Source of the DNA: Bacteroidota bacterium
Lineage (GTDB): Bacteria > Bacteroidota > Bacteroidia > Cytophagales > Cyclobacteriaceae
DNA length: 56,127 nucleotides
Direction of reading: 5' to 3'
Assembly: GCA_013285945.1 (NCBI GenBank)
Contig: JABDGP010000013.1
Location: forward strand, 1 to 56,127
Shown here: positions 31,377 through 43,695 of the stretch, one piece after another
Numbering within the stretch: the first letter of the stretch is position 1
How the letters are laid out: each line of letters opens with the position of its first letter
Notes under the pieces: model-generated
What the model saw: the letters and a program-made list of their open reading frames with translations, nothing else
Told to the model about the DNA's origin: nothing
Databases searched by the model: none
Program-made: the position numbers and the translations under genes

Positions 31377-32273
31377 ATGAAAAGGATTCTACTCGTCTTG
31401 TTTGCTTGTCTCATTCTTTGGCCTGAGTTATCTCAATCACAGAGTTTTTTTGCTATCCGGAGAGAAAGATCATTAATTCTGACGGCAGGCACGGGCTCAT
31501 CTACTTATTATGGTGAGCTATCAAACCCAGGTTCGGTTATAAAATTCCAGCCAAATTTCAATGTTGGGCTTCAGGCCTACGTCAGCCCGATCATTAGTAT
31601 TAGAACTGAAGTAAACTGGTTCGTTTTAAAAGGTTCGGATACCCAAGCTAATGAGGAAGGGAGAAAAGCCCGAGGTTTGTCCTTTACTTCAAGCTGTTTT
31701 GAACTAAGTGCAACCGGTGCAGTAAGCCTATATGCAAACGGTAATCGGTATTATCGAAGACCAGCTATAAACATTTATGCGTTTACCGGGATTGGCATTT
31801 TGTATTTTAACCCCAAGGCTGACTACAAAGGTAAAAGTTACGCGCTGGAGCCACTGCATACCGAGGGCGTCAGTTATAGTAGAGTTGTGCCGGTTATACC
31901 AATTGGGCTTGGCATTCGATTAAAAGTAGGGCCGAATACCAATCTAGTTTTTGAAGGGGGATATAGGAAGACGTTTACTGATTACCTGGACGATGTAAGC
32001 AATAAATATACAGCTCCAAGTTCTAACCCCATAACGGCTTATTTCCAAAACCCGAATAATCCCCTATATAATCCTAGCGCGACCGGTACTACAAATAATT
32101 TCACAGCTGGTTTTAAACGGGGCAATCCAAATTCAGCAGATAGCTATTTTTTACTGAATGCAAAGATTGAATACTATCTGCCGTTTTCTTCGTCAAAAAG
32201 AGGTAGTGGGCTGATCAGCAAGCGTAAGTCTAACTACCGATATAATAAGCGAGGTGGGATGAAACGGAGATAG
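31377..32273 (+). CDS. Outer-membrane beta-barrel protein (DUF6089-like)
   Basis: A 298-residue exported protein with signal peptide (MKRILLVLFACLILWPELSQ) and short beta-strands ending in aromatic residues. The early motif GTGSSTYYGELSNP resembles the STYYGDLN start of DUF6089-type outer-membrane barrels. Later strands include VGLQAYVSPIISIRTEVNWF, PAINIYAFTGIGILYFNP and LVFEGGYRKTFTDYLDDVSN. After the last strand (YFLLNAKIEYYLPF) comes a basic tail (SSKRGSGLISKRKSNYRYN with KRGGMKRR), which is odd because most barrels end at the aromatic strand. It follows sucC and converges with the polysaccharide locus 12 bp away. Its role is unknown. Confidence 0.75.
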   Translation: MKRILLVLFACLILWPELSQSQSFFAIRRERSLILTAGTGSSTYYGELSNPGSVIKFQPNFNVGLQAYVSPIISIRTEVNWFVLKGSDTQANEEGRKARGLSFTSSCFELSATGAVSLYANGNRYYRRPAINIYAFTGIGILYFNPKADYKGKSYALEPLHTEGVSYSRVVPVIPIGLGIRLKVGPNTNLVFEGGYRKTFTDYLDDVSNKYTAPSSNPITAYFQNPNNPLYNPSATGTTNNFTAGFKRGNPNSADSYFLLNAKIEYYLPFSSSKRGSGLISKRKSNYRYNKRGGMKRR

Positions 32274-32284
32274 GCAGGGAAGAG

Positions 32285-34192
32285 TTATTGCTTATCTAAT
32301 ATTTCGTAGCGCGAGTAGTTGCTTTTGTATTCTGGCACTAATTCTTTCATTAAGGCTACACTCTTAAGTTCATTACGGTCATTGACCAAGTCATTAAATA
32401 GCTCAACATACCTGTTGATTTCTTCGTAGGAGTACTTGGGAACCCTAGCAATCATGATTTTTTGATGGTGCGTACGAATTGTGTCTTCAGTGTTATTCAG
32501 CAATTCTTCATATAGTTTTTCACCCTCCCTCAAGCCTGTGAATACGATGTCAATATCCTTCCTTGGTTCTAGCCCTGACAGCCAGATCATTTTCTCGGCC
32601 AAATCAAGTATCCTGACAGATTTTCCCATATCAAAAATGAAAATTTCGCCGCCTTTCCCCATGGTGCCGGCCTCTAGTACGAGTTGGCATGCTTCTGGGA
32701 TGGTCATGAAATAACGTGTAATCTCAGGATGTGTGACAGTAATCGGGCCGCCTTCCTTTATCTGTTTTTTGAAGAATGGAATCACCGAACCATTAGATCC
32801 TAACACATTGCCAAAGCGCGTTGTGACAAAAGCCGTACGAGCCTTCCCAGTCACAAGTAAATAATCGTTTAGCGATTGCACATAAATTTCGGCGATTCGC
32901 TTGGAGCACCCCATGACATTTGTTGGATTTACAGCCTTATCGGTTGAAATCATTACAAATTTCGAGACATTGAATTCCGCTGCGAGATCGGCGAGTATCT
33001 TGGTCCCTAAAACATTGCAAGTAATCGCCTCCGATGCATTGCTCTCCATCATAGGCACATGTTTGTAAGCAGCTGCATGATAAACTATCTCAGGCTTGTG
33101 TTCCTCAAATAAGAACCTGATTCTTTCCTGGTTATTAATGTCTGCCAGATAAAAATAGAATCTAACCCCCGTTTCCAATGAGGAAGCTTCTCTTTCCAAC
33201 TCATATAGGGCAGATTCTGATTGATCAATAAGAATGATTGAGCCGGGTTTATTTAAGGCGACCTGTCTGAAAAGTTCTGACCCGATAGAACCCGCAGCAC
33301 CGGTAATTAATACTCGTTTGCCTCGCAGATCAGATTCTATATTAGCATTTTGGATTTTAATAGACTCTCTTCCGAGTAAGTCCTCAATATTGATTTCTTT
33401 AATTTGATTTAAACTTAACTCACCCCGCACCCATTTTTCTACCGGAGGTACCGACCTCACTTTTATCTGGTTTCGGATACACTCATCTACAACTTCATTT
33501 TTCCGTTCAAGTGTGATATCCTTAGCTGTGAAGATTAGCTCATCCACTGACTGGTCTGCAAATACACGATGAAGTTCTGAAGTTCTGGCACTAAAGATTG
33601 TAGTACCATCTATGATTTTACCGGCTTTATTTGGGTCATCCTCTAAAAAACCAACAACTTTCATCCGTGGAGTCGATTCCAATACATGGCGTGTAATAAT
33701 TCCCGTCTGCCCGGCTCCAAAGATCATCACCCGGGACCTATTGATCATTAAATTCCTGTAATAAGAGAAAATGTACTTTACAAGAAGGCGATAGTTGAAT
33801 AATAAAAGAAAGGAGGACAAAAGACTGATAAAAACAACTGAGTAAGGAATGATGTTTCCCCGATTGTTATAATAAAAGATCATGTTTGAAGCTGCAACCA
33901 GCGCTCCGTTTAAAGTCGTCATGGCAAAAATCCTGGCACCATCCTGTATTCCCGTGTATCGTATAATTCCCTTATAGCTATTGGTAATCGTGATGGAGAT
34001 GAGTCCGCAGGTGGCATATAGCAAAATTCCGGCACCGAAATTATTGTGCTCAAGGTCTGGCGCAGAAAAATTGAATCGCAGAAGGTAACCCAGTAACGAC
34101 GAGAAAGAAATGAGCGTAATATCAATAAAGATGATTACCCAGCGAGGTAATATCCGCAGGTTGCGAATGAACTTGACAAAAAAACGGACCAA
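32285..34192 (-). CDS. PglF/WbpM-like nucleoside-diphosphate-sugar 4,6-dehydratase
   Basis: A 635-residue membrane protein. The first ~140 residues hold four membrane helices, followed by a nucleotide-binding CoA-like domain (GAGQTGIITRHVL near 155) and a C-terminal short-chain-dehydrogenase domain. The latter has the Rossmann motif GAAGSIGSELFRQV, ISTDKAVNPTNVMG (a TDK-type active-site variant, as in PglF/WbpM) and FGNVLGSNGSVIP. This family converts UDP-GlcNAc to the 4-keto-6-deoxy sugar at the membrane, the first step to bacillosamine or QuiNAc. The gene is the last of the unit 40153-32285, 3 bp after the small exosortase-signal protein gene. Its partners (PglE-, PglD-, PglC-like) are in the same direction 6-11 kb upstream. 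Confidence 0.9.
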   Translation of the reverse strand: MVRFFVKFIRNLRILPRWVIIFIDITLISFSSLLGYLLRFNFSAPDLEHNNFGAGILLYATCGLISITITNSYKGIIRYTGIQDGARIFAMTTLNGALVAASNMIFYYNNRGNIIPYSVVFISLLSSFLLLFNYRLLVKYIFSYYRNLMINRSRVMIFGAGQTGIITRHVLESTPRMKVVGFLEDDPNKAGKIIDGTTIFSARTSELHRVFADQSVDELIFTAKDITLERKNEVVDECIRNQIKVRSVPPVEKWVRGELSLNQIKEINIEDLLGRESIKIQNANIESDLRGKRVLITGAAGSIGSELFRQVALNKPGSIILIDQSESALYELEREASSLETGVRFYFYLADINNQERIRFLFEEHKPEIVYHAAAYKHVPMMESNASEAITCNVLGTKILADLAAEFNVSKFVMISTDKAVNPTNVMGCSKRIAEIYVQSLNDYLLVTGKARTAFVTTRFGNVLGSNGSVIPFFKKQIKEGGPITVTHPEITRYFMTIPEACQLVLEAGTMGKGGEIFIFDMGKSVRILDLAEKMIWLSGLEPRKDIDIVFTGLREGEKLYEELLNNTEDTIRTHHQKIMIARVPKYSYEEINRYVELFNDLVNDRNELKSVALMKELVPEYKSNYSRYEILDKQ

Positions 34193-34195
34193 TTA

Positions 34196-34399
34196 TTATT
34201 TTGTTTTTTTTAATGACTTCATAATTTTTCTTGCCCCAAATAACCCTCCCAACCCGATCAAGTATTCAATTCCTGAAATTGGGGCAGGTATACAAGGTGG
34301 TTTGGGGCATGGGTGGTGTCCTCCTCCAGGTTGCGCTAATATATTTTCGCTTGCGAGAATTAAAACCGTAAAAAGTATAGCCCGATAGAATTTAGTCAT
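34196..34399 (-). CDS. 67-residue protein with exosortase-type C-terminal sorting signal (PID/PIS-CTERM-like)
   Basis: The protein has three parts: a signal peptide (MTKFYRAILFTVLILASENI, cleaved after LAQ), a short body of about 18 residues rich in Gly, His, Pro and two Cys (PGGGHHPCPKPPCIPA), and a C-terminal sorting module. The module has a PISG motif, a hydrophobic stretch (EYLIGLGGLFGA) and a basic tail (RKIMKSLKKTK). This tripartite plan matches the short Bacteroidota PID-CTERM proteins, with Ser in place of Asp, and is the expected kind of substrate for exosortase XrtF encoded at 41907-42452. It is squeezed between the T9SS cargo and the PglF-like gene with 3 bp on each side, so all three should share one mRNA. 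Processing and anchoring are inference. Confidence 0.8.
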   Translation of the reverse strand: MTKFYRAILFTVLILASENILAQPGGGHHPCPKPPCIPAPISGIEYLIGLGGLFGARKIMKSLKKTK

Positions 34400-34402
34400 G
34401 TC

Positions 34403-37400
34403 TTAGTCTTTAACTATTCGTATAACTGTAACCTTATCGCCCTGACCTACTCTCACCAGGTAAATCCCTGCACTTTCTCTGCTGAAATTATAAGTCGCGC
34501 TTTGCTGCTGGCCGTCAAAACTAAAGTTGAGTGTTGTAATATGTTCACCCAAGGCATTGTATAAATCGCCGGATGCGTTTTCATTTCCCGAGGCTTCTAT
34601 TGTCAATTTTCCCTTCACCGGATTCGGATATGCATTAATATCTGTAGATTTTTCATCAATTCCTGTAACCACCATTTCCTTGTCTGTTGAAACCGAACAT
34701 CCTTGAGAGCTAACTGTCAATTTATAATCACCGGACTGGTTTATCTGCAATGTTTTGTTTGTTGCTCCAACAATGACTGTACCATCTAAATACCATTGAT
34801 TTCCAGTGTCATAGTTTGATTGCAGTGTTGACGATCCAGTGACGATAATAACTGCAGGATCCAGATTAACAACATTAGCCTGCGCTGGCGCCCAAGCACC
34901 TTCGCAGCCCAGACTATTAACTGCTGAAACATAATAAGTCCTTTGCCTGGTTATGGTGTCTGTAACGAAGGTTGCTGTTTGATTTGTATATGGCGTGGTT
35001 GCATTCAATGAATCATACCAATTGTAATAACCGCCTGAAGGCGCGCCGGAGGCTGTCAATGTTACCAATCCTTTGCCACACGAAATGCCTGCAGAAACTG
35101 AGGGGGCGACTGGCGGCGGCAGGTAACTAAGAACAACTGTATCGGAGGATGCTCCCAAACTCGCACAGAATTTATTCATTTCCTGAACTAAAAACTTGTT
35201 TGGTCCTGCAACCAATGCATTTGCTGCAACTTGAAAGTTAAGATCACTACCTGTGCCTGAAATTGAGGCGCCGACTACCGAACCATCTTTGGCTGATAAG
35301 AGTGAGTAATTAAAGTCAACAGAACTGCTTTTAACAATTACTTGCGCCAGGGTTGTATCACAAATGCTCGGGCTTTGGGTAGTAATTGGAATGTTGGTGC
35401 CTGTGTACGTAAACGTCAGACTAAATCGATTTGAGCCAAAAGTAGAAGCATTGTTCTGATCTACCGTAAATGGATAGTTTTGGTTTTGCCGAACGTCTGT
35501 GGTTGAGTTGGAGTAATTATCTTTAAGTTGGATATTCATTGCAGAAGGCATTGACTCAAAGTCACTAAAAGACAAAGAGTACGTGCCAGAAGTTACATCA
35601 CTTACATCCAGCGGAACAACCTGAGCACAGTTCTTAAAGGGCATTGCATTAATTGCATATTTTTCCTGCACAGGAGACATTGAAGATAAATTCAAATACC
35701 AATACTGGTTTCTCAATTTTCGAGCATCATATCTCGTATCAAATCCGATGGTAGCTGAATCTAAAAAGTAAATTACACTTTCGTCGGTAAGGTTGTCGCT
35801 GGAAGTCAGCGTAATCCTAATCAAATTATTCGGAGTGGCCTCGCGGAAAAGAGTTGTCTGAGTTCCTGGCACTTTAACATTCTCAGTTATCGTGATCACA
35901 GGAGAAGTGGTGTTTGCTTTTACCCAAAAGCCCTGACCGGTTGCAATGTATCGAGTTCCGCCGTTTGTGCCTACTCCGTTTACGAAAGTAGCAAAGACGG
36001 GATTTGCAGTACTGTAGTCATCAATATAGATCGCATCATCGACATTGGTTTTAGTCCAACCAGAAGCAGCCTTCCAATCTATCGTAGAAGGATAAGGATT
36101 ACCTACTAGGTTCCATCCGTCATTCGCAATAACAGGCGTATTACCTGGCCCAGAATTAGTAAAATGAATGGGAAAATTAATACTACCACTCCAAATAGTA
36201 CCTCTCAGACTCCATTTAGCGTTTCCATTCGTGGTTACAGGAACATCGCTTCCAAAAATAAACATCTGGTATCCCTGGGCTTTAGTAAAGGTGGTAGTTG
36301 CGCTATTACTAAGATCAACAGGGAAATCGGTCCATCCGTCATTTAAATCATTTGAGCCGCTTCCATCAGTATCGGTTATTACGGTCTCATCATAACTATA
36401 CATTGAAGGAGAGCCGGTCTCGCCAGGTACTGAACTTTGTCCGGTGAAATTTCCCGTTACCGGAAGTGAGTTTTGAAGATCAGAAACAGTTGTGTTTACA
36501 GGTGATGTAATATCTCTCCAAACTTGATAATTGTAAGTCGAAACCCCTGTTTTGCTCATGTAGCGCTGAACCGTAATTTTTCCTGGTAATTGCGTACTGC
36601 CTGCAGAAAGTACTGCAATACTGGCATCTATTGTCGGTTTATCAGCAGTTGATAACAATGTAAAGATTCTATTACCGCCAGCCCCGTCTGTATCAAATAC
36701 TACTGCACTGGGTGAAGCGGATACAGTTAAAATACCCGAAAGATCTGCGCCCACCGTATTCTCTAATGTTAAATCAGCTGCGTTGGTTCCGCCATTAACA
36801 GTGAGGTTATTAAACACAATTTTTGTGTTGCCCGAAATTTGCTTAGCCGTATTTCCAGAAAATGTAATAGTGCCGCTTCCTGCTGCAAAAGTCCCACCGT
36901 TATTTATCAGATTACCTTGAATTGTTAAGGCAGCAGGAGCAGTAAAAGTACCTGAGCTTATGGTCAGATTATTTAATACTGGCACTGTTCCCGAAATCGT
37001 TACCGTTCCAGCTGATACAATTGTCCCCGTTTGATTATTGAATGTACCATTGTTTGTCAAGGTCCCGTTCAATGTCAGGCCGGTTGTTGCTGCGGCAGTT
37101 GGTGCATTGAATGTGCCGGCGCTGGTGAAAGATCCTGCAGTGAGATTGTTGGCTCCACAAGTAAAGGTTCTTCCAGTAGTTGAAATTGTAAAAGCATTGG
37201 TGACAGTTAATGCCTGATTTAACGTAACCGTTGATGCATTATTAGTATTAATTGTTACACTTGAAACATTGCCTGAGACTGGTACTTCCAAGCCCGTTGT
37301 TTTTGTAGCTCCGGTATAAATTAAACTCCAACCTGAGCCTGAGGGATTGGACGTAGAGATAACTCCGGCAGCTCTCGTAAGCGTTGCGCCGCTGGCGATT

Positions 37401-40153
37401 GTCAAAAGATTGGAAGTAATAGCCATAGTACCAGCGGTTAATGTTATCTGGCTTGAAGCACTTGATACAGAGACTGCGGCCGTAATATTGAGGGTTCCCG
37501 CAGTTAGTGTCAGGTTATTTGTAATTGTTTCCGCTGAATTAACACTTAAGCTACCTCCAGTTTTATTTACAGTAAAATTATTGAACTGGGTATTAGATGA
37601 TCCTGAAATAGTTTGAACGTTAGTCCCACTAAAATTAACTGTGTTCGAGCCGGCTGTAAGCGTCCCATTATTTACAAAGTTGCCTTGTATGTTAAGTGTA
37701 GTTGGCGCTGTCAACGTTGCTCCGTTATTGATGGTAACAGAATTAAAGCTGGTAGTTGATGCATTGGTACCTAATATCGATTGTGCCGAAGAGCCACCAA
37801 AAATCACTGTCCCGGCATTATTTGTAAAAGTGCCACTGATAGACAGATTTCCAGTCAGCGTGAGTGTAGTACTAGGCGCTGTAAAAGTGCCTGCACTAAC
37901 TGTAAAGAATGATGACGAAATAGCGTTAGCTCCACTTGTAAATGTGCCGGAGCTAATTGTTGCACCTCCCGAGCCAATGTTAAGAGCTTTATTTAGCGTG
38001 ATAGTTCCCGAATTGGTCGATGTGAGGCTGGTGAGCACTCCTGAGGCTGGTATCTCGAAGCCTGTAGTAACGCTTGCAGAACTTGAGTAACTTAAGTTCC
38101 ATGGGCCACCAGAAGGACTGCTCGTAGTAATTGTGCTTGGGGAAGTACCCGTCACCGCAAAATTTATAGTAGATCCGCCTCCCATGTTTAAAGCGCTCCC
38201 TACTATGTCGAGAGTTCCATCGGTCATAGTCAGGGTATTGGTCACATTAAGGGCGGTTGCAACTTGCACTGATGTCCCGCTGGCATTTGTTTTATTAATG
38301 GTTAATGTTTGCAGGGTGTTATTTGCAGGTAAAAATCCGATAGCTGAAGTCAGGCCTGTAGCACCTGTTAAACTTAATGTCGATGCTCCGCTTGCAGAAA
38401 GTAAACCGGGAGATGTAAAGTTGCCGGCCATTGACAAGGACTGGCCGTCAAACGCAAGTACTGTCCCTGAAGCCAGTGAAACGGCTCCTGTTAGGGTAGT
38501 TGTACCTCCAAATGTGACAGTTCCGCTGGTCAGGGTGGTAGTTCCTGTAATAGCAAGCACATTAGCGAAAGTCACCGAGCCAGAGCTTGTGCGTGCCAAC
38601 GTAAAGTTTCGGAAAGTCTGATTTCCGCTTGGAAATGGGAAAGTTCCCAGCGCTCCTGTGCCATTAATTACCAAGTCTGTTGTTGCTCCGGTAATCGTAA
38701 TATTATTCGTATTTGGTGTGATGTTCCCATTCAAAGTCAACGAAGCTGCTCCAGCACTGCTATCGATATTAAAATTCCCGTTGGTAAGTATCAGATTCCC
38801 CGGAATAGTGATAATGCTGCCATTGGGGTTACCAGTGGCTCCGGCATTAAAAGTTACACCACTTACGTTATCTATTTCGGTTGTAACTCCTGCTGTTGTT
38901 GGATGGCCTGAACCTATTACCTGTGCAGCGAGGCCGGCATATACGATTCTGCTTCCTGAATTGTAAGCTCTATTAGCTACAGTGTTACGAATGTTTCCCT
39001 GAGTTGTCAGTGCCATCAATGCTCCCACAGAATTAAGTGAGCCGAGACGGATGGTTCCGTTTACAATAAGGTTGCCACTTCCAACAATTGCAGATTCATT
39101 TTGCATGTCCAGCACTGTTGACGCACCAATAGTAACATCGATGGTATTAGACATAGTGCCAGTGTTTGTAAATGACTGTGTGCCTGCAGTATTGAAGATA
39201 ATTGCACCTCTCCCGGTACTTGCTTCCGTTAGCGTGCCAGCTATTAAGTTAAAATCACCAGTCAAATTCATAGTCCCTGTGTTCGCTCCATTGGAAAGTT
39301 CCAAAGTACCGGTGGTATTCATATTAAAATTGCCCGATACATTTAGCGTGTATGGCCCTGATGTTTTCAATGCTGACGTTGCAGTAGAATTATAATTAAA
39401 ATCACTTCCAACATTAATTACACCACCACTTCCGGTTGTAACAAATGCCAGTTTTGAATTTCCATCAACCTCCAGAATTCCACCAATTGTAATGGTTGGG
39501 GCTGTTGTTGTAGCAAGTTCAAGTTGTTGTCCATTGGTCGTACTGACAATAAAATCAGTGTTTATGAGTTTCAGGTTTCCAGCCATATTAATTGCTGCCG
39601 ACTGACCCGCACAATTCCATGTGAAGGTGTCGAAGCCACCGGAGGGGCTAAGACCACCAGGTACTGTATTAGTGATACCTGTAATGGTACAAAATGAACC
39701 TGTATTCCATGTTGCTGTTGGTATCGTACCGCCGTTACGCCCGTGTGTGTATGTTCCATTAAAAACAAGTGCCAATACCGAAGGACTTGTAAGTGCTCCG
39801 GTTCCAGTAATGGTCAAAGTGCCATTAACATCTAAGGCATCAGAAGTATTTGTGAGTGTTAAAGTATTGCTCGAAATAGTAAGTGTGGCGCCAGGATCCA
39901 CTGTTGCCTGATCAATGGTCAAGTTTGAGGAAATCGTGACAATGTCATTGGCTTGAATCTCTATTGTACCACTGGCCGATGTTGGTGTGCTTGATGCCGC
40001 AATCCAATTACCAGATCCGTCGGGGCTTTCTACTTGCCAAGTACCAATCACGGTCCAGGAGCCTCCACCTGTACCATTGGAGCGAAAATTGGTCTGGCTT
40101 TTTGCTATTGAAGCCACTGCAAGGAAACCAAATAAGACAAAAATTTTCTTCAT
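34403..40153 (-). CDS. Giant T9SS-secreted beta-repeat surface protein (1916 residues)
   Basis: The protein begins with a signal peptide (MKKIFVLFGFLAVASIAKSQ). Residues 20 to about 1170 are low-complexity beta-repeats rich in Thr, Ser, Gly, Asn and Ala (TLTSGTVTFGGTTTLTG is typical), likely a solenoid or stack of short beta-strands, as in adhesins. A cysteine-poor globular middle follows (SKTGVSTYNYQVWRD near 1205, DGWNLVGNPYPSTIDW near 1345), then Ig-like modules (APSVSAGISCGKGLVTLTAS, QSNYDTGNQWYLDG). The last 78 residues are a type A T9SS sorting domain (YPNPVKGKLTIEAS ... ESAGIYLVRVGQ). T9SS would export it and PorU-type sortase would fix it to the cell surface. It heads the unit with the micro-protein and the PglF-like enzyme. 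Confidence 0.92.
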   Translation of the reverse strand: MKKIFVLFGFLAVASIAKSQTNFRSNGTGGGSWTVIGTWQVESPDGSGNWIAASSTPTSASGTIEIQANDIVTISSNLTIDQATVDPGATLTISSNTLTLTNTSDALDVNGTLTITGTGALTSPSVLALVFNGTYTHGRNGGTIPTATWNTGSFCTITGITNTVPGGLSPSGGFDTFTWNCAGQSAAINMAGNLKLINTDFIVSTTNGQQLELATTTAPTITIGGILEVDGNSKLAFVTTGSGGVINVGSDFNYNSTATSALKTSGPYTLNVSGNFNMNTTGTLELSNGANTGTMNLTGDFNLIAGTLTEASTGRGAIIFNTAGTQSFTNTGTMSNTIDVTIGASTVLDMQNESAIVGSGNLIVNGTIRLGSLNSVGALMALTTQGNIRNTVANRAYNSGSRIVYAGLAAQVIGSGHPTTAGVTTEIDNVSGVTFNAGATGNPNGSIITIPGNLILTNGNFNIDSSAGAASLTLNGNITPNTNNITITGATTDLVINGTGALGTFPFPSGNQTFRNFTLARTSSGSVTFANVLAITGTTTLTSGTVTFGGTTTLTGAVSLASGTVLAFDGQSLSMAGNFTSPGLLSASGASTLSLTGATGLTSAIGFLPANNTLQTLTINKTNASGTSVQVATALNVTNTLTMTDGTLDIVGSALNMGGGSTINFAVTGTSPSTITTSSPSGGPWNLSYSSSASVTTGFEIPASGVLTSLTSTNSGTITLNKALNIGSGGATISSGTFTSGANAISSSFFTVSAGTFTAPSTTLTLTGNLSISGTFTNNAGTVIFGGSSAQSILGTNASTTSFNSVTINNGATLTAPTTLNIQGNFVNNGTLTAGSNTVNFSGTNVQTISGSSNTQFNNFTVNKTGGSLSVNSAETITNNLTLTAGTLNITAAVSVSSASSQITLTAGTMAITSNLLTIASGATLTRAAGVISTSNPSGSGWSLIYTGATKTTGLEVPVSGNVSSVTINTNNASTVTLNQALTVTNAFTISTTGRTFTCGANNLTAGSFTSAGTFNAPTAAATTGLTLNGTLTNNGTFNNQTGTIVSAGTVTISGTVPVLNNLTISSGTFTAPAALTIQGNLINNGGTFAAGSGTITFSGNTAKQISGNTKIVFNNLTVNGGTNAADLTLENTVGADLSGILTVSASPSAVVFDTDGAGGNRIFTLLSTADKPTIDASIAVLSAGSTQLPGKITVQRYMSKTGVSTYNYQVWRDITSPVNTTVSDLQNSLPVTGNFTGQSSVPGETGSPSMYSYDETVITDTDGSGSNDLNDGWTDFPVDLSNSATTTFTKAQGYQMFIFGSDVPVTTNGNAKWSLRGTIWSGSINFPIHFTNSGPGNTPVIANDGWNLVGNPYPSTIDWKAASGWTKTNVDDAIYIDDYSTANPVFATFVNGVGTNGGTRYIATGQGFWVKANTTSPVITITENVKVPGTQTTLFREATPNNLIRITLTSSDNLTDESVIYFLDSATIGFDTRYDARKLRNQYWYLNLSSMSPVQEKYAINAMPFKNCAQVVPLDVSDVTSGTYSLSFSDFESMPSAMNIQLKDNYSNSTTDVRQNQNYPFTVDQNNASTFGSNRFSLTFTYTGTNIPITTQSPSICDTTLAQVIVKSSSVDFNYSLLSAKDGSVVGASISGTGSDLNFQVAANALVAGPNKFLVQEMNKFCASLGASSDTVVLSYLPPPVAPSVSAGISCGKGLVTLTASGAPSGGYYNWYDSLNATTPYTNQTATFVTDTITRQRTYYVSAVNSLGCEGAWAPAQANVVNLDPAVIIVTGSSTLQSNYDTGNQWYLDGTVIVGATNKTLQINQSGDYKLTVSSQGCSVSTDKEMVVTGIDEKSTDINAYPNPVKGKLTIEASGNENASGDLYNALGEHITTLNFSFDGQQQSATYNFSRESAGIYLVRVGQGDKVTVIRIVKD

Positions 40154-40367: not shown

Positions 40368-41489
40368 CTATGAAGGAAAGACCTTAGTAATCTGAGAAAC
40401 AATAAAATTCAAGTCGTTTTCTTCAAGACCAGACCCTGAAGGAAGGCATAGACCCTTCTCAAATAGAGACTCCGAAGTCCCATTTAGGTAGGCTGGAGCA
40501 TCTTTAAAAACTGGCTGTAAGTGCATTGGTTTCCAAAGCGGCCTTGTTTCAATATTTTCTGCTTCCAAAGCTATTCTTATGTGATCATTCCTATTCTTTT
40601 CACCAGCAATCAACATTGTTGTCAACCATCGATTTGAGAAACAGCCTTCCATTTCCGGCTGAAACGAAAAACCACAATTGCTTAGATTTTTCTTATAGAA
40701 TTCAAATATTCTTCTTCGTTGTAATATCCTCGCAGTCAATACCGTCATTTGCCCTAGGCCTATACTGGCTGAGATGTTGCTCAGTTGATAGTTATAACCG
40801 ATTTCTTCGTGCTGATAATATGGCACTGGGCTTCTCGATTGATTTGAGAGGAATCTGGCCTTTTCAATCAACTCCTTACTGGAAGAAATGATTGCGCCAC
40901 CGCCTGAGGTTGTAATGATTTTGTTGCCATTAAATGAATAGATTCCAATGTCGCCGATTGATCCCATCCTCTTTTCAAAGTAGGTTGATCCTAATGCCTC
41001 TGCAGCATCCTCAATTACGGGGATCTCGTACCTGCGGGCAATGTCCATGATCGGATTCATTTGCGCAGGCATTCCAAAAAGATGAACAACGATAATCGCC
41101 TTTGGTTTTCTGCCTAATAGGATTCTACTTTGGATGGCTTGCTCAAGTAATGCAGGGTCCATATTCCAACTATCCAACTCCGAATCCACAAATACAGGTG
41201 TGGCCGATTGGTATATTATCGGGTTACATGAGCCTGAAAACGTAAACGTAGAACAAATAACTTCATCACCGCGACTAACTCCTAAAGCAATCAATGCCAA
41301 ATGAATTGCAGCCGTGCCCGAGCTTACTACAAGGCAGTGATCTACACCATTATCGCTTGCAATCTGCTTTTCGAAAGCAACAAGTGCAGGCCCTGCGGGC
41401 GCAATCCAGTTTGATTCGAAAGCCTGCCCTATAAATTTCAGTTCCTCGCCACACATATGAGGAGGCGAAAGAAAAATCCGTTTCTTCAT
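40368..41489 (-). CDS. DegT/DnrJ/EryC1 aminotransferase, PglE-like
   Basis: A 373-residue PLP-dependent sugar aminotransferase. It begins KKRIFLSPPHMCGEELKFIG, typical of PglE and related UDP-4-keto-sugar aminotransferases. VSSGTAAIHLALIALGVS is the PLP phosphate region, IEDAAEALGSTYFEK holds the cofactor-ring Asp, and the Schiff-base lysine is in SFNGNKIITTSGGGA. With the PglF-like, PglD-like and PglC-like genes nearby, conversion of UDP-4-keto-6-deoxy-GlcNAc to UDP-4-amino-4,6-dideoxy-GlcNAc is the likely reaction. It follows the exosortase-associated gene with a 4-bp overlap and ends the upstream operon. Confidence 0.9.
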   Translation of the reverse strand: MKKRIFLSPPHMCGEELKFIGQAFESNWIAPAGPALVAFEKQIASDNGVDHCLVVSSGTAAIHLALIALGVSRGDEVICSTFTFSGSCNPIIYQSATPVFVDSELDSWNMDPALLEQAIQSRILLGRKPKAIIVVHLFGMPAQMNPIMDIARRYEIPVIEDAAEALGSTYFEKRMGSIGDIGIYSFNGNKIITTSGGGAIISSSKELIEKARFLSNQSRSPVPYYQHEEIGYNYQLSNISASIGLGQMTVLTARILQRRRIFEFYKKNLSNCGFSFQPEMEGCFSNRWLTTMLIAGEKNRNDHIRIALEAENIETRPLWKPMHLQPVFKDAPAYLNGTSESLFEKGLCLPSGSGLEENDLNFIVSQITKVFPS

Positions 41490-41926
41490 TTTCGTCCGGA
41501 GATTTTCTGAAAATAGACTGCCGGAATCAGCAATATCATCAAGGTAGGATTAATAATCAATCGATGAAGTTGTGAAAGTAAAGGCGAAGAAATTTCCGAG
41601 TCCCCCTCCCATTTCAATTTTATAAAGAGATAGACCGGAAACAGGATAAACAAATCAACCAACTGAACACCAAGTGCCAAACGAGTGATGGAGGCATTAC
41701 GAAACCACGCAGAAATGATCATCAGCATGAAAATGTCATTTAAAAAAAGTCGGACAAATTTTCGCAGAGCAAATAGAAAATTGGCTGATGGTAAGTCGTC
41801 TGAGAAAGCAGTAATAAACGAAAGATCCTGGAAAAGGTAAATGAACAAAATACCCGACACACCAATCATTAGGAGTAAAATCCTGCTCCATTCTATTTTC
41901 AGAATATCATCTAACCTCCTTACCAT
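41486..41926 (-). CDS. Exosortase F-associated membrane protein
   Basis: A 146-residue protein with four predicted membrane helices. The sequence (MVRRLDDILKIEWSRILLLM, then LFIYLFQDLSFI, PSANFLFALRKFVRLFLND and HRLIINPTLMILLIPAVYFQ) matches the small protein that accompanies XrtF (exosortase F system-associated, TIGR04127 as recalled). Its job is unknown; it may help the exosortase to bind substrate or lipid. The gene overlaps xrtF by 20 bp and the PglE-like gene by 4 bp, so the three are coupled in one operon. No catalytic residues are evident. Confidence 0.82.
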   Translation of the reverse strand: MVRRLDDILKIEWSRILLLMIGVSGILFIYLFQDLSFITAFSDDLPSANFLFALRKFVRLFLNDIFMLMIISAWFRNASITRLALGVQLVDLFILFPVYLFIKLKWEGDSEISSPLLSQLHRLIINPTLMILLIPAVYFQKISGRK

Positions 41927-42452
41927 CTTTTATTTTTTTTGTCCAGAAAAACCACAAGACAAATACCATCGCATAGATAATACCTGTGAAAAGATATTTA
42001 TGAAAAAAATATAAATATTCAGGAAAGTAAAAGGCCGCTGCATAGAGAAGTGTAAGACGCAACAGGTTTAGAAGATGAATTCCAATTGATCCTAAAGTTA
42101 AGAAAGCAAAGAACAGTCGCACAGGGCCTTTATAGGCAACCAAAAAGCTCAAGTAAACAATGATCACATTTATACCATTACATCCCTCGAAAACGCTGAT
42201 TACATTTTCCCTATCGTTGCTGATCGGTATATACTCTACAAAGATTGATGGGTAATCGGTAATTGTAGGGTCAAAAAAAGACAGAATCCATACAGTTTGA
42301 TTGGCAACAGATTTTGTAACAGGGTCAGCCGTAGGGCTATAATAATTAATATACAAGCCATAGAATGTATTCAGCACCAGGTAAATGGAAACAAATACAA
42401 TTAGAAATCGAAGTGCCGGTTTGTTTTCCTTAATGACAGAACTCGCACTCAT
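41907..42452 (-). CDS. xrtF: Exosortase family protein XrtF
   Basis: A 181-residue integral membrane protein with five or six helices. The exosortase catalytic pattern is complete: Cys91 in VFEGCNGINV, Arg132 in LLNLLRLTLLY and His151 in YFFHKYLFTG. These Cys-Arg-His residues are the proposed triad of transpeptidases that cleave C-terminal sorting signals of the PEP-CTERM kind. Its short length and Bacteroidota context fit XrtF (TIGR04128 as recalled). The start overlaps the stop of the PglD-like gene by one base, and the associated protein follows with an overlap, so it is embedded within the glycan operon. The substrate candidate is the 67-residue protein at 34196-34399. Confidence 0.9.
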   Translation of the reverse strand: MSASSVIKENKPALRFLIVFVSIYLVLNTFYGLYINYYSPTADPVTKSVANQTVWILSFFDPTITDYPSIFVEYIPISNDRENVISVFEGCNGINVIIVYLSFLVAYKGPVRLFFAFLTLGSIGIHLLNLLRLTLLYAAAFYFPEYLYFFHKYLFTGIIYAMVFVLWFFWTKKIKDGKEVR

Positions 42453-43096
42453 TATTTCTTAAGTTTTCGTGCAGGGACACCAAGCAATTTCAGATCAGAA
42501 TCAAAGCTTTTTGTCACTACAGAACCTGCTCCAACAAGGCAGTTCTCTCCAATTGTAATTCCCTGAATTATTCTGGAGCCTGTTCCCAATAAGCATCTTG
42601 AACCAATTGAAACATTTCCTGAAATACTGCAAGCGGGCATTACCGTGCAAAAATTTCCCAACTTAACATCATGACCTATAGTGCTTGCCAAATTTATAAT
42701 GCAAAACTCTCCGGTTTCGATTCCAGTCGTAAGGATCACTCCCGCTGTTACGATCGACCCCCTTCCAAATTTATTCCTGTTTCTGTCACCAAGATTGGCA
42801 CCCGGATGGGCAAGTACCGGAAAATTGATTTTATCATTAGTCGTCGTCTCAACTAAAACACGCCGAATGTTTGGATCTGCAACGGCAACAACAACAGACA
42901 AGTGGAATGTAACCAAATTTAATTCATTAATTCCACCTAAAATTTCTAGATCGTCAACTGTTGAATTCTTTTCTTTACCGTCATCGAAAAAGCCAATGAC
43001 TTCCCATGTTGGTTTAAAATCGTTGATCTGTGCGATCATTGCCGCCACCTCCCGACCAAAACCACCTGCGCCAAAAATAGCCAGCTTATTTTTCAA
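42452..43096 (-). CDS. PglD-like sugar O/N-acetyltransferase (left-handed beta-helix)
   Basis: A 214-residue enzyme with an N-terminal Rossmann-like domain (IFGAGGFGREVAAMIAQIND) and a C-terminal left-handed beta-helix of hexapeptide repeats (IGHDVKLGNFCTVMPACSIS, GSRCLLGTGSRIIQG). The catalytic His in the IGHD turn is present. PglD acetylates the 4-amino group of UDP-4-amino-sugar using acetyl-CoA. The preceding gene (PglC-like) overlaps by 4 bp and xrtF follows with a one-base overlap. With PglF-, PglE- and PglC-like enzymes this completes the bacillosamine-type pathway. NeuD-type activity cannot be ruled out. Confidence 0.9.
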   Translation of the reverse strand: MKNKLAIFGAGGFGREVAAMIAQINDFKPTWEVIGFFDDGKEKNSTVDDLEILGGINELNLVTFHLSVVVAVADPNIRRVLVETTTNDKINFPVLAHPGANLGDRNRNKFGRGSIVTAGVILTTGIETGEFCIINLASTIGHDVKLGNFCTVMPACSISGNVSIGSRCLLGTGSRIIQGITIGENCLVGAGSVVTKSFDSDLKLLGVPARKLKK

Positions 43097-43695
43097 TTAC
43101 CTGAAAATTTTTCTTCGTTCAAAGATACGTCCTTCCTGAAAGAAAGTAGCAACAAAAAAGTTTTGACCAGAATAAGAAGGTCAAGTTTGAAAGAAATGTT
43201 TTCTAAATAATACAAATCCAATTCAAATTTCCGAGGCCACGGAATAGAATTTCTACCGTTGACTTGCACCCAACCTGTAATTCCAGGCTTAAGTTCATGT
43301 CTTTTCTTTTGAGATTCATTGTACAATGGGAGATATTCCATTAACAATGGTCGAGGTCCAATCAGCGACATATCGCCTTTCAGTACATTCCAAAGTTGCG
43401 GCAGTTCGTCCAAAGAAAACTTTCTAAGCCATTTGCCAACATAAGTCAATCGTGCCTCGTCCGTTAATGACCTGCCGTCATCGGTTTTTCCGCCCTCCAT
43501 CATAGTTCTAAATTTAATAAGAGTAAATGGCTTACAATAAAGACCGGGTCGCTGCTGCTTAAACCATATCTTTCCGCTACTCACAAAAAGTAGCGCTATA
43601 ATGATCACTAAAAGCGGTAACAAAATAATCAACAGGAAAAGACTGATGATGAAGTCAATAAGCGGCTTACTATATCGGGGGTAGAAATGCATCAA
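43093..43695 (-). CDS. PglC-like monotopic sugar-1-phosphate transferase
   Basis: A 200-residue phosphoglycosyl transferase of the small monotopic family. A re-entrant membrane helix lies at about 12-38 (IDFIISLFLLIILLPLLVII). Motifs are FKQQRPGLYCKPFTLIKFRT, the catalytic Asp-Glu pair in SLDELPQLWNVLKGDMS, GPRPLLMEYLPLY and KPGITGWVQVNGRN. It attaches the first sugar phosphate (N,N'-diacetylbacillosamine in the PglC case) to undecaprenyl phosphate. The length equals PglC and is shorter than the WbaP type. It overlaps the PglD-like gene by 4 bp. A second initiating transferase lies directly upstream (43716-44675). Confidence 0.92.
   Translation of the reverse strand: MMHFYPRYSKPLIDFIISLFLLIILLPLLVIIIALLFVSSGKIWFKQQRPGLYCKPFTLIKFRTMMEGGKTDDGRSLTDEARLTYVGKWLRKFSLDELPQLWNVLKGDMSLIGPRPLLMEYLPLYNESQKKRHELKPGITGWVQVNGRNSIPWPRKFELDLYYLENISFKLDLLILVKTFLLLLSFRKDVSLNEEKFSGN

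Follow-up and report, generated by a model that had tools for sequence, protein, structure and literature searches.

The small gene at positions 34196..34399 (minus strand) of the window, the whole 56,127-nucleotide stretch of Cyclobacteriaceae DNA analysed here, encodes a 67-residue micro-protein (P0001) that is probably a dedicated substrate of the exosortase XrtF encoded at the same locus, the predicted product being a peptide that works with the RemA-type giant encoded directly upstream (probability about 0.65). The parts of this reading differ in strength: that the micro-protein is an XrtF substrate, with a predicted cleavage, is highly probable; that it is a putative functional partner of the RemA-type cargo is moderately likely; and the putative C-terminal ligation of the peptide to a glycan or lipid falls just short of even odds. 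P0001 belongs, as a PITGIE form, to a class of putative micro-substrates that extends across the phylum, often encoded behind RemA-type T9SS cargos. The gene family has a conserved place and a conserved tail, and is statistically tied both to exosortases and to cargos with the RemA-type domain; cleavage, ligation and contact between the peptide and the giant are what we infer.

The open reading frame picked out by an earlier, sequence-only reading is real, running from 34399 to 34196 with its stop codon included, as judged from the ORF list, its translation and its orthologues; the sequence-only reading named no strand, and the plus strand of this interval is interrupted by stop codons in the matching register. 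Reading by eye also bore out the anatomy described earlier, of a signal peptide, a Pro/Gly/His body with two Cys, and a PISG-hydrophobic-basic tail, and this Cys pair is confined to part of the genus. Residues 1-22 (34334..34399) are the predicted signal peptide, with cleavage expected by eye at ..LA/QP, in which AQP is conserved; residues 23-39 (34283..34333) are the predicted mature peptide core of 17 aa, QPGGGHHPCPKPPCIPA, delimited from the sequence, with signs of purifying selection; and residues 40-67 (34199..34282) are the PISGIE-helix-basic tail, a predicted XrtF sorting signal on the basis of alignment and profile comparison. The family shares this layout of signal peptide, 11-19 residues, PI[ST]GxE, helix and basic tail, the distance from ..AQ/P to PI[ST]G being 11-19 residues with the Gln counted, and 17 here (22 sequences). 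Exosortase/CTERM substrates are defined by a tripartite C-terminal signal in the available excerpt of PMC11980579, and the micro-protein family has such a motif, hydrophobic helix and basic cluster, as well as, on sequence reading and from the conserved ..AQP, an N-terminal Sec signal peptide. The motif PI[ST]G[ILV]E is present in 22/22 micro-protein sequences, and across 21 aligned sequences the tail’s PI[ST]GxE, one Leu and two Gly are invariant, with the codons of these residues varying freely. Pooled pN/pS over 29 sequences is 0.75 for the signal peptide, 0.35 for the mature core and 0.45 for the tail; hence, as the ratio is lower in the core and tail than in the signal peptide, the tiny mature core itself seems to be under selection. 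Three side searches were unproductive: a shadow ORF at 34110-34388 (plus strand) has its frame broken across the micro-gene in 19/25 relatives, which is a weak test; a Pfam ‘Fungus-induced’ match of the micro-protein (E 0.13) is a chance match; and the PDB held no relatives of value for micro-proteins (best E 0.12 and 0.23).

Within the genus, a single-sequence search of 58 genomes found the micro-gene in 26 of the 36 congeneric ones (own included), and at all 26 loci examined a homologue of the T9SS giant precedes it and a PglF homologue follows. A profile of 21 micro-protein sequences (A1) raised this to 48/62 genus genomes, own included, at E < 1e-12, with one copy per genome. The 17 loci from a scan of named genomes come from metagenome assemblies labelled Bacteroidetes, Cytophagales, Cyclobacteriaceae or Flammeovirgaceae, plus two cultured Cytophagales isolates that carry the PITGIE form, Chryseosolibacter indicus and Shiella aurantiaca; a search for plasmid-borne relatives, with the relative from L005 as the only query, found none. 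The recurrent order is neuD, xrtF, its associated gene, the aminotransferase, the giant, the micro-gene and pglF, the exceptions being two loci in which the aminotransferase has moved (L067, L080) and others that are cut by contig ends. Of the 41 genus genomes with both XrtF and the micro-gene, 31 carry them on a single contig, invariably on the same strand, with XrtF 4.2-10.1 kb upstream. The micro-gene alone was found in seven genomes, XrtF alone in five and neither in nine (p 6e-4; descent not corrected for), and the discordance of the four drafts opened among these 12 (L081, L083, L084, L085) arises because contig ends separate the two places. The notion that the ORF is spurious or decaying draws on its mere 67 codons and on its failure to match any model; against this stand the orthologues in 48/62 genus genomes, the purifying selection and the fixed place, leaving it a negligible probability. 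The ORF is therefore not a product of chance, given its presence across the genus, the tail that stays invariant despite codon variation, and the pN/pS values.

At the locus itself, all on the minus strand, the micro-gene directly follows the giant T9SS cargo (1916 aa; 34403..40153), recognised from the ORF list, NCBIfam/Pfam matches and synteny, which carries a T9SS type A sorting domain (34409..34630; 35.8 bits, cut-off 23). Directly downstream is a PglF-like nucleotide-sugar 4,6-dehydratase (32285..34192; Polysacc_synt_2, PF02719, E 1.3e-118), an ORF listed from a TTG start. The 3-bp gaps to both neighbours are as the sequence-only reading claimed, as is the position of XrtF, about 7.5 kb upstream on the same strand. 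This spacing suggests that the micro-gene may be cotranscribed with the giant and pglF; a scan around it for promoters and terminators gave no more signals than shuffled sequences did, and no terminator. The exosortase (41907..42452) scores 126 bits against TIGR04128, for which the XrtF threshold is at least 90, and 100.6 bits against the XrtX model, for which the cut-off is 170, and so is XrtF by NCBI cut-offs. Its Cys91, Arg132 and His151, which we take to be the exosortase active-site set, are intact and are invariant in 41/41 sequences compared; the PDB offered no XrtF relatives of value. Next to it lies the exosortase F system-associated membrane protein (41486..41926), at 34.4 bits against TIGR04127, for which the cut-off of 35 is, at a guess, perhaps tight for this lineage. 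A DegT-type sugar aminotransferase (40368..41489) and a NeuD/PglB-type sugar acetyltransferase (42452..43096), both assigned from domain model matches, flank this pair. Beyond NeuD, nine of ten ORFs matched Pfam: a PglC-like bacterial sugar transferase (43093..43695; PF02397), glycosyltransferases, an epimerase, a carbamoyltransferase, a methyltransferase and two acyltransferases. On the other side, a PorG/DUF6089-like gene (31377-32273, plus strand; 90 bits, cut-off 130) is convergent to pglF, and of the 17 named loci 13 show both porG and sucC near pglF, several of the remaining loci being cut.

Across the phylum, genomes were called exosortase-positive by a TIGR04128 match at E <= 1e-5, which covers XrtF/XrtX-type enzymes and identified 102 of 345. 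All 55 genomes with a PID_CTERM match have an exosortase (Fisher 9e-36; descent not corrected for), as do 56/58 genomes matched by A1 (Fisher 2e-33; descent not corrected for). One of the two A1 exceptions (G404, L170) proved on opening to hold no micro-protein, and the other (G291) is an unopened 336-aa frame at E 6.7e-4; a further A1 match, in the XrtF genome G423 (L165), was likewise no micro-protein, the real one lying elsewhere in that genome (L218). Homologues are thus not equally common in genomes without an exosortase, either over these A1 genomes or within the genus; equal frequency was the outcome that the sequence-only reading had named as counting against it. Genome-level presence and co-occurrence of the enzyme accordingly fit what is expected of exosortase/CTERM substrates. 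In some genomes the micro-gene directly adjoins the exosortase gene (L130-L133, and G116 by coordinates), and in many a single exosortase accompanies several micro-genes, up to nine in G370, as would be expected if one enzyme served several substrates. The proposal of an exosortase-substrate-like protein tied to XrtF therefore stands in its core, on sequence relationship, synteny and co-occurrence, and needs widening from a single protein to a class.

P0001 passes none of the NCBIfam and Pfam models, and has no match to PID-CTERM (NF046080). It is the family around it that comes close: one congener scores 15.8 and one family relative 18.5 bits against PID_CTERM (cut-off 26), and hhalign of the A1 profile against a profile of PIDGG micro-proteins gives 98.9% probability and E 1.9e-17, to which the signal peptide contributes. 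The A1 profile also matches, at 97.7% probability, a profile built on the micro-proteins of family f25 genomes with XrtF. In other lineages four PIDGG micro-proteins score 38.9-50.4 bits, a PLGG form 31.3 and a PIQG form 24.0, and elsewhere in the window’s own genome no PID-CTERM match exceeds the cut-off (E 0.14-1.1). Hence, from the sub-cut-off scores and the profile matches, which establish homology to PIDGG micro-proteins at the profile level, the micro-protein is placed with the PID-CTERM kind, as a PITGIE variant, and outside NCBI family NF046080; its motif is PI[ST]GxE in place of PIDGG. The absence of a sorting-signal match, the other finding that the sequence-only reading had named as counting against its proposal, consequently applies to P0001 and does not extend to its family. 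Apart from two at 200 and 995 aa, the PID_CTERM matches listed all sit in frames shorter than 200 aa, and therefore micro size is the rule for this kind and not a trait of this gene, which removes the distinction of being one of the smallest sorted proteins. In one genome (G055) two near-identical PIDGG micro-genes (L029 and L030) are separated by 0.4 Mb, and a T9SS-giant homologue precedes each.

There were 37 exosortase-positive genomes that had neither A1 nor PID_CTERM matches. In the families f24 and f25, presumed to be Flavobacteriales, Pro-rich PID-tailed micro-genes lie beside a ribE-like gene (starting MFTGIIE) in XrtF-positive genomes (L158, L160, L161, L163, L167, L168), and such a ribE-adjacent micro-protein is a candidate XrtF substrate. 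A profile of seven of these proteins, six ribE-linked and one not (A3), was run on 27 further XrtF-positive genomes, namely 23 of the 37 (14 were left out) plus four more. All 27 matched at E <= 0.011, and 26 of the matches were real on opening, including that at E 0.011 in G357; the exception was a match in G388 (E 3e-4). None of 15 XrtF-negative genomes had a match below E 0.009 (p 2e-10; descent not corrected for), four of them having weak matches (E 0.009-0.048) in unopened frames of 213-1038 aa. The start of ribE was seen near the micro-gene at 14 of the 26 opened loci, and in 7/8 f24 genomes the gene directly ahead of the micro-gene encodes about 490 aa and has, by eye, a T9SS-like end. 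Unlike at the window’s locus, no micro-gene was found beside a high-scoring xrtF in the f24 and f25 loci opened, the candidates lying elsewhere; in G423 the micro-gene is about 165 kb from a cluster of RemA-type domains. These other XrtF genomes mostly have one to three PIxG-tailed micro-proteins, each about 60-90 residues long.

The link to T9SS cargos extends well beyond the genus. For the best PID_CTERM match in each of the 55 genomes, the nearest ORF of at least 100 aa within 700 bp upstream is on the same strand in 46, and has a T9SS type A sorting domain in 37, where genomes contain 11-117 genes with such a domain (eight genomes counted). These 37 cargos (the total being the hmmscan count, and the family split a per-genome reading) are spread over 9/12 families, with 26/37 in f41. 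Common to the cargos is a domain that precedes the sorting domain and is about 319 aa long; in the giant it lies at 35408..36406, and it was delimited by profile (A4) and has no Pfam match. It is present in 12/12 exosortase-positive genomes, as against 1/21 exosortase-negative ones (33 searched), although all 21 of the latter have T9SS cargos, from 1 to 125 each. Sequences from six of the 12 positives contributed to the A4 model (G000, G047, G354, G271, G298, G194), and all six outside it also have the domain (p 2e-5 against 1/21; descent not corrected for). In seven genomes, 28/31 PID micro-genes have a RemA-type domain no more than 1.4 kb upstream of them, and 28/61 domain matches have a PID micro-gene downstream, with 61 of 62 matches used after exclusion of an overlapping piece in G376, and some matches being pieces of one gene. 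Five more domain ORFs from exosortase-positive genomes comprise one followed by a PID micro-gene (L283) and four with none directly after (L284-L287).

The A4 profile finds F. johnsoniae RemA and RemZ in the PDB (8gl6 and 8gl8; E 3.8e-43 and 9.2e-40), neither of which was found by a single-sequence search with the giant. The giant hence resembles these proteins in having the domain of about 300 aa before a type A sorting domain, and differs from them in having no lectin domain by Pfam. An AlphaFold2 model of the domain consists of nearly all strands at a mean pLDDT of 66, and a Foldseek search with it gave no match below E 0.28; the domain deserves its own family model. As far as the available excerpts go, the sorting domain alone is well resolved in the RemA/RemZ structure (PMC10994853), and RemA is a mobile surface adhesin or lectin in gliding (PMC8481357, PMC5445135), the overproduction of which causes cell clumping via galactose-containing EPS, and the mutation of which leads to misshapen microcolonies (PMC8481357).

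These cargo data bear on whether the peptide, though released by an exosortase, serves the sugar locus solely by carrying a glycan or lipid, with the T9SS giant an operon bystander. PglF, the aminotransferase, NeuD, the PglC-like enzyme and glycosyltransferases do surround XrtF and the micro-gene, in an order largely kept in the genus, and many RemA-type cargos have no adjoining micro-gene. Nevertheless, a T9SS cargo is still upstream in 37/55 genomes outside the genus, and the RemA-type domain tracks the exosortase, making this reading improbable. The role of a glycan-carrying anchor, suggested at the outset, is putative, and the strongest new link is to RemA-type T9SS cargos.

The one exosortase-negative genome with the RemA-type domain, G170, has no exosortase match. 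Of six domain ORFs in the stretches fetched from it (L278-L281), five are followed by a small gene that starts 16-119 bp on, and encodes a Tat-like signal peptide (by eye), about ten residues of the form (A/S)SPE(P/V/A)PG(S/G/E)GF, and then a stop, such that the peptides end in GSGF, GGGF or GEGF; three forms scanned against NCBIfam had no match. In this one genome, these small genes would represent the same delivery of a peptide, without a tail to be cut, which suggests that C-terminal joining is perhaps not needed everywhere. Rather below even odds, and correspondingly tentative, is a broader three-part surface system of the Bacteroidota, in which RemA-type cargos would need a Pro/Gly-rich peptide of about 10-20 residues that is exported on its own, the XrtF and XrtX enzymes of this phylum would serve chiefly to release or tag it, and G170 would have the same system with a ready-made C-terminus.

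The same genome helps to weigh the alternative of an uncut, two-helix membrane micro-protein that helps to export or assemble the T9SS giant or PglF, in which PISG would merely be part of a helix. Such a helper would suit the very short periplasmic part, the 3-bp spacing to both neighbours and the upstream cargo kept across families. It is nonetheless unlikely, as it sits poorly with the near-perfect co-occurrence with exosortases, with several micro-genes per single exosortase, with a tripartite tail that is the same as that of known sorting signals (PMC11980579, in excerpt), and with the different post-cargo micro-gene of exosortase-free G170, which encodes a short peptide without a tail helix.

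Under the favoured reading, of a dedicated XrtF substrate working with the giant, Sec would export the precursor and signal peptidase would cut after Ala22, leaving a short Pro/Gly-rich peptide tethered by its C-terminal helix. XrtF would then cut at or near PISG, yielding a peptide of about 17-20 residues, the new C-terminus of which may be joined to a moiety made by the surrounding sugar genes. For exosortases, attachment of another moiety at the newly made C-terminus is supposed (PMC11980579, in excerpt), and it would fit the sugar genes around XrtF. The peptide and the upstream RemA-type T9SS giant might act together in building or anchoring an adhesin or matrix at the cell surface. Counting against this reading are the lack of a model match for P0001 itself, the many RemA-type domains with no micro-gene behind them, the micro-genes that lie near ribE or, in G423, far from the domain cluster, the domain in exosortase-negative G170, and the genus genomes with just one of XrtF and the micro-gene.

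Several known systems share parts of this arrangement. Like PID-CTERM (NF046080) and exosortase X (NF046081), two models which we take to belong together, and which the distribution of PID_CTERM matches and exosortases here fits, it combines a short secreted protein, a PIxG-helix-basic tail and co-occurrence with an exosortase; it differs in having PI[ST]GxE and not PIDGG, in scoring below the model cut-off, and in its enzyme being XrtF and not XrtX. The mature proteins of the PEP-CTERM, PGF-CTERM, GlyGly-CTERM and MYXO-CTERM kinds are usually domain-sized, unlike the mature part of 11-19 residues here. The tripartite signal and the membrane endopeptidase are features common to PEP-CTERM/EpsH, PGF-CTERM/ArtA, GlyGly-CTERM/rhombosortase and MYXO-CTERM/myxosortase (PMC11980579, in excerpt). 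The Wbp/Vim linkage of T9SS cargo in P. gingivalis similarly joins surface sorting to a nucleotide-sugar pathway (PMC7468200, in excerpt), although it acts on the C-termini of T9SS cargo, whereas here it would be an exosortase peptide instead. The closest comparison for the enzyme is F. johnsoniae XrtF (the Fjoh_1448 type, TIGR04128), which is of the same exosortase family and also has the associated membrane protein. In the excerpted text of PMC10936215, XrtF-system genes of this species are needed for biofilm and zorbs, and XrtF for surface colonisation, the xrtF deletion forming no zorbs and strongly reduced biofilm; deletions of xrtF and Fjoh_1449 are available in the laboratory strain UW101.

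The targets of XrtF ‘are not yet known’ according to an excerpt of a 2025 paper (PMC12188702), and among the open-access literature matches listed there was no earlier report of the pairing of micro-gene and cargo, or of XrtF targets. Micro-proteins that end in a PIxG tail and span about 60-90 residues are hence a concrete candidate class for these targets. A peptide of fewer than 20 residues produced by a dedicated sorting enzyme would, if true, be unusual. The tie of these micro-proteins to the RemA/RemZ family joins the exosortase and T9SS export routes, which seldom meet in one paper (4 in the literature searched).
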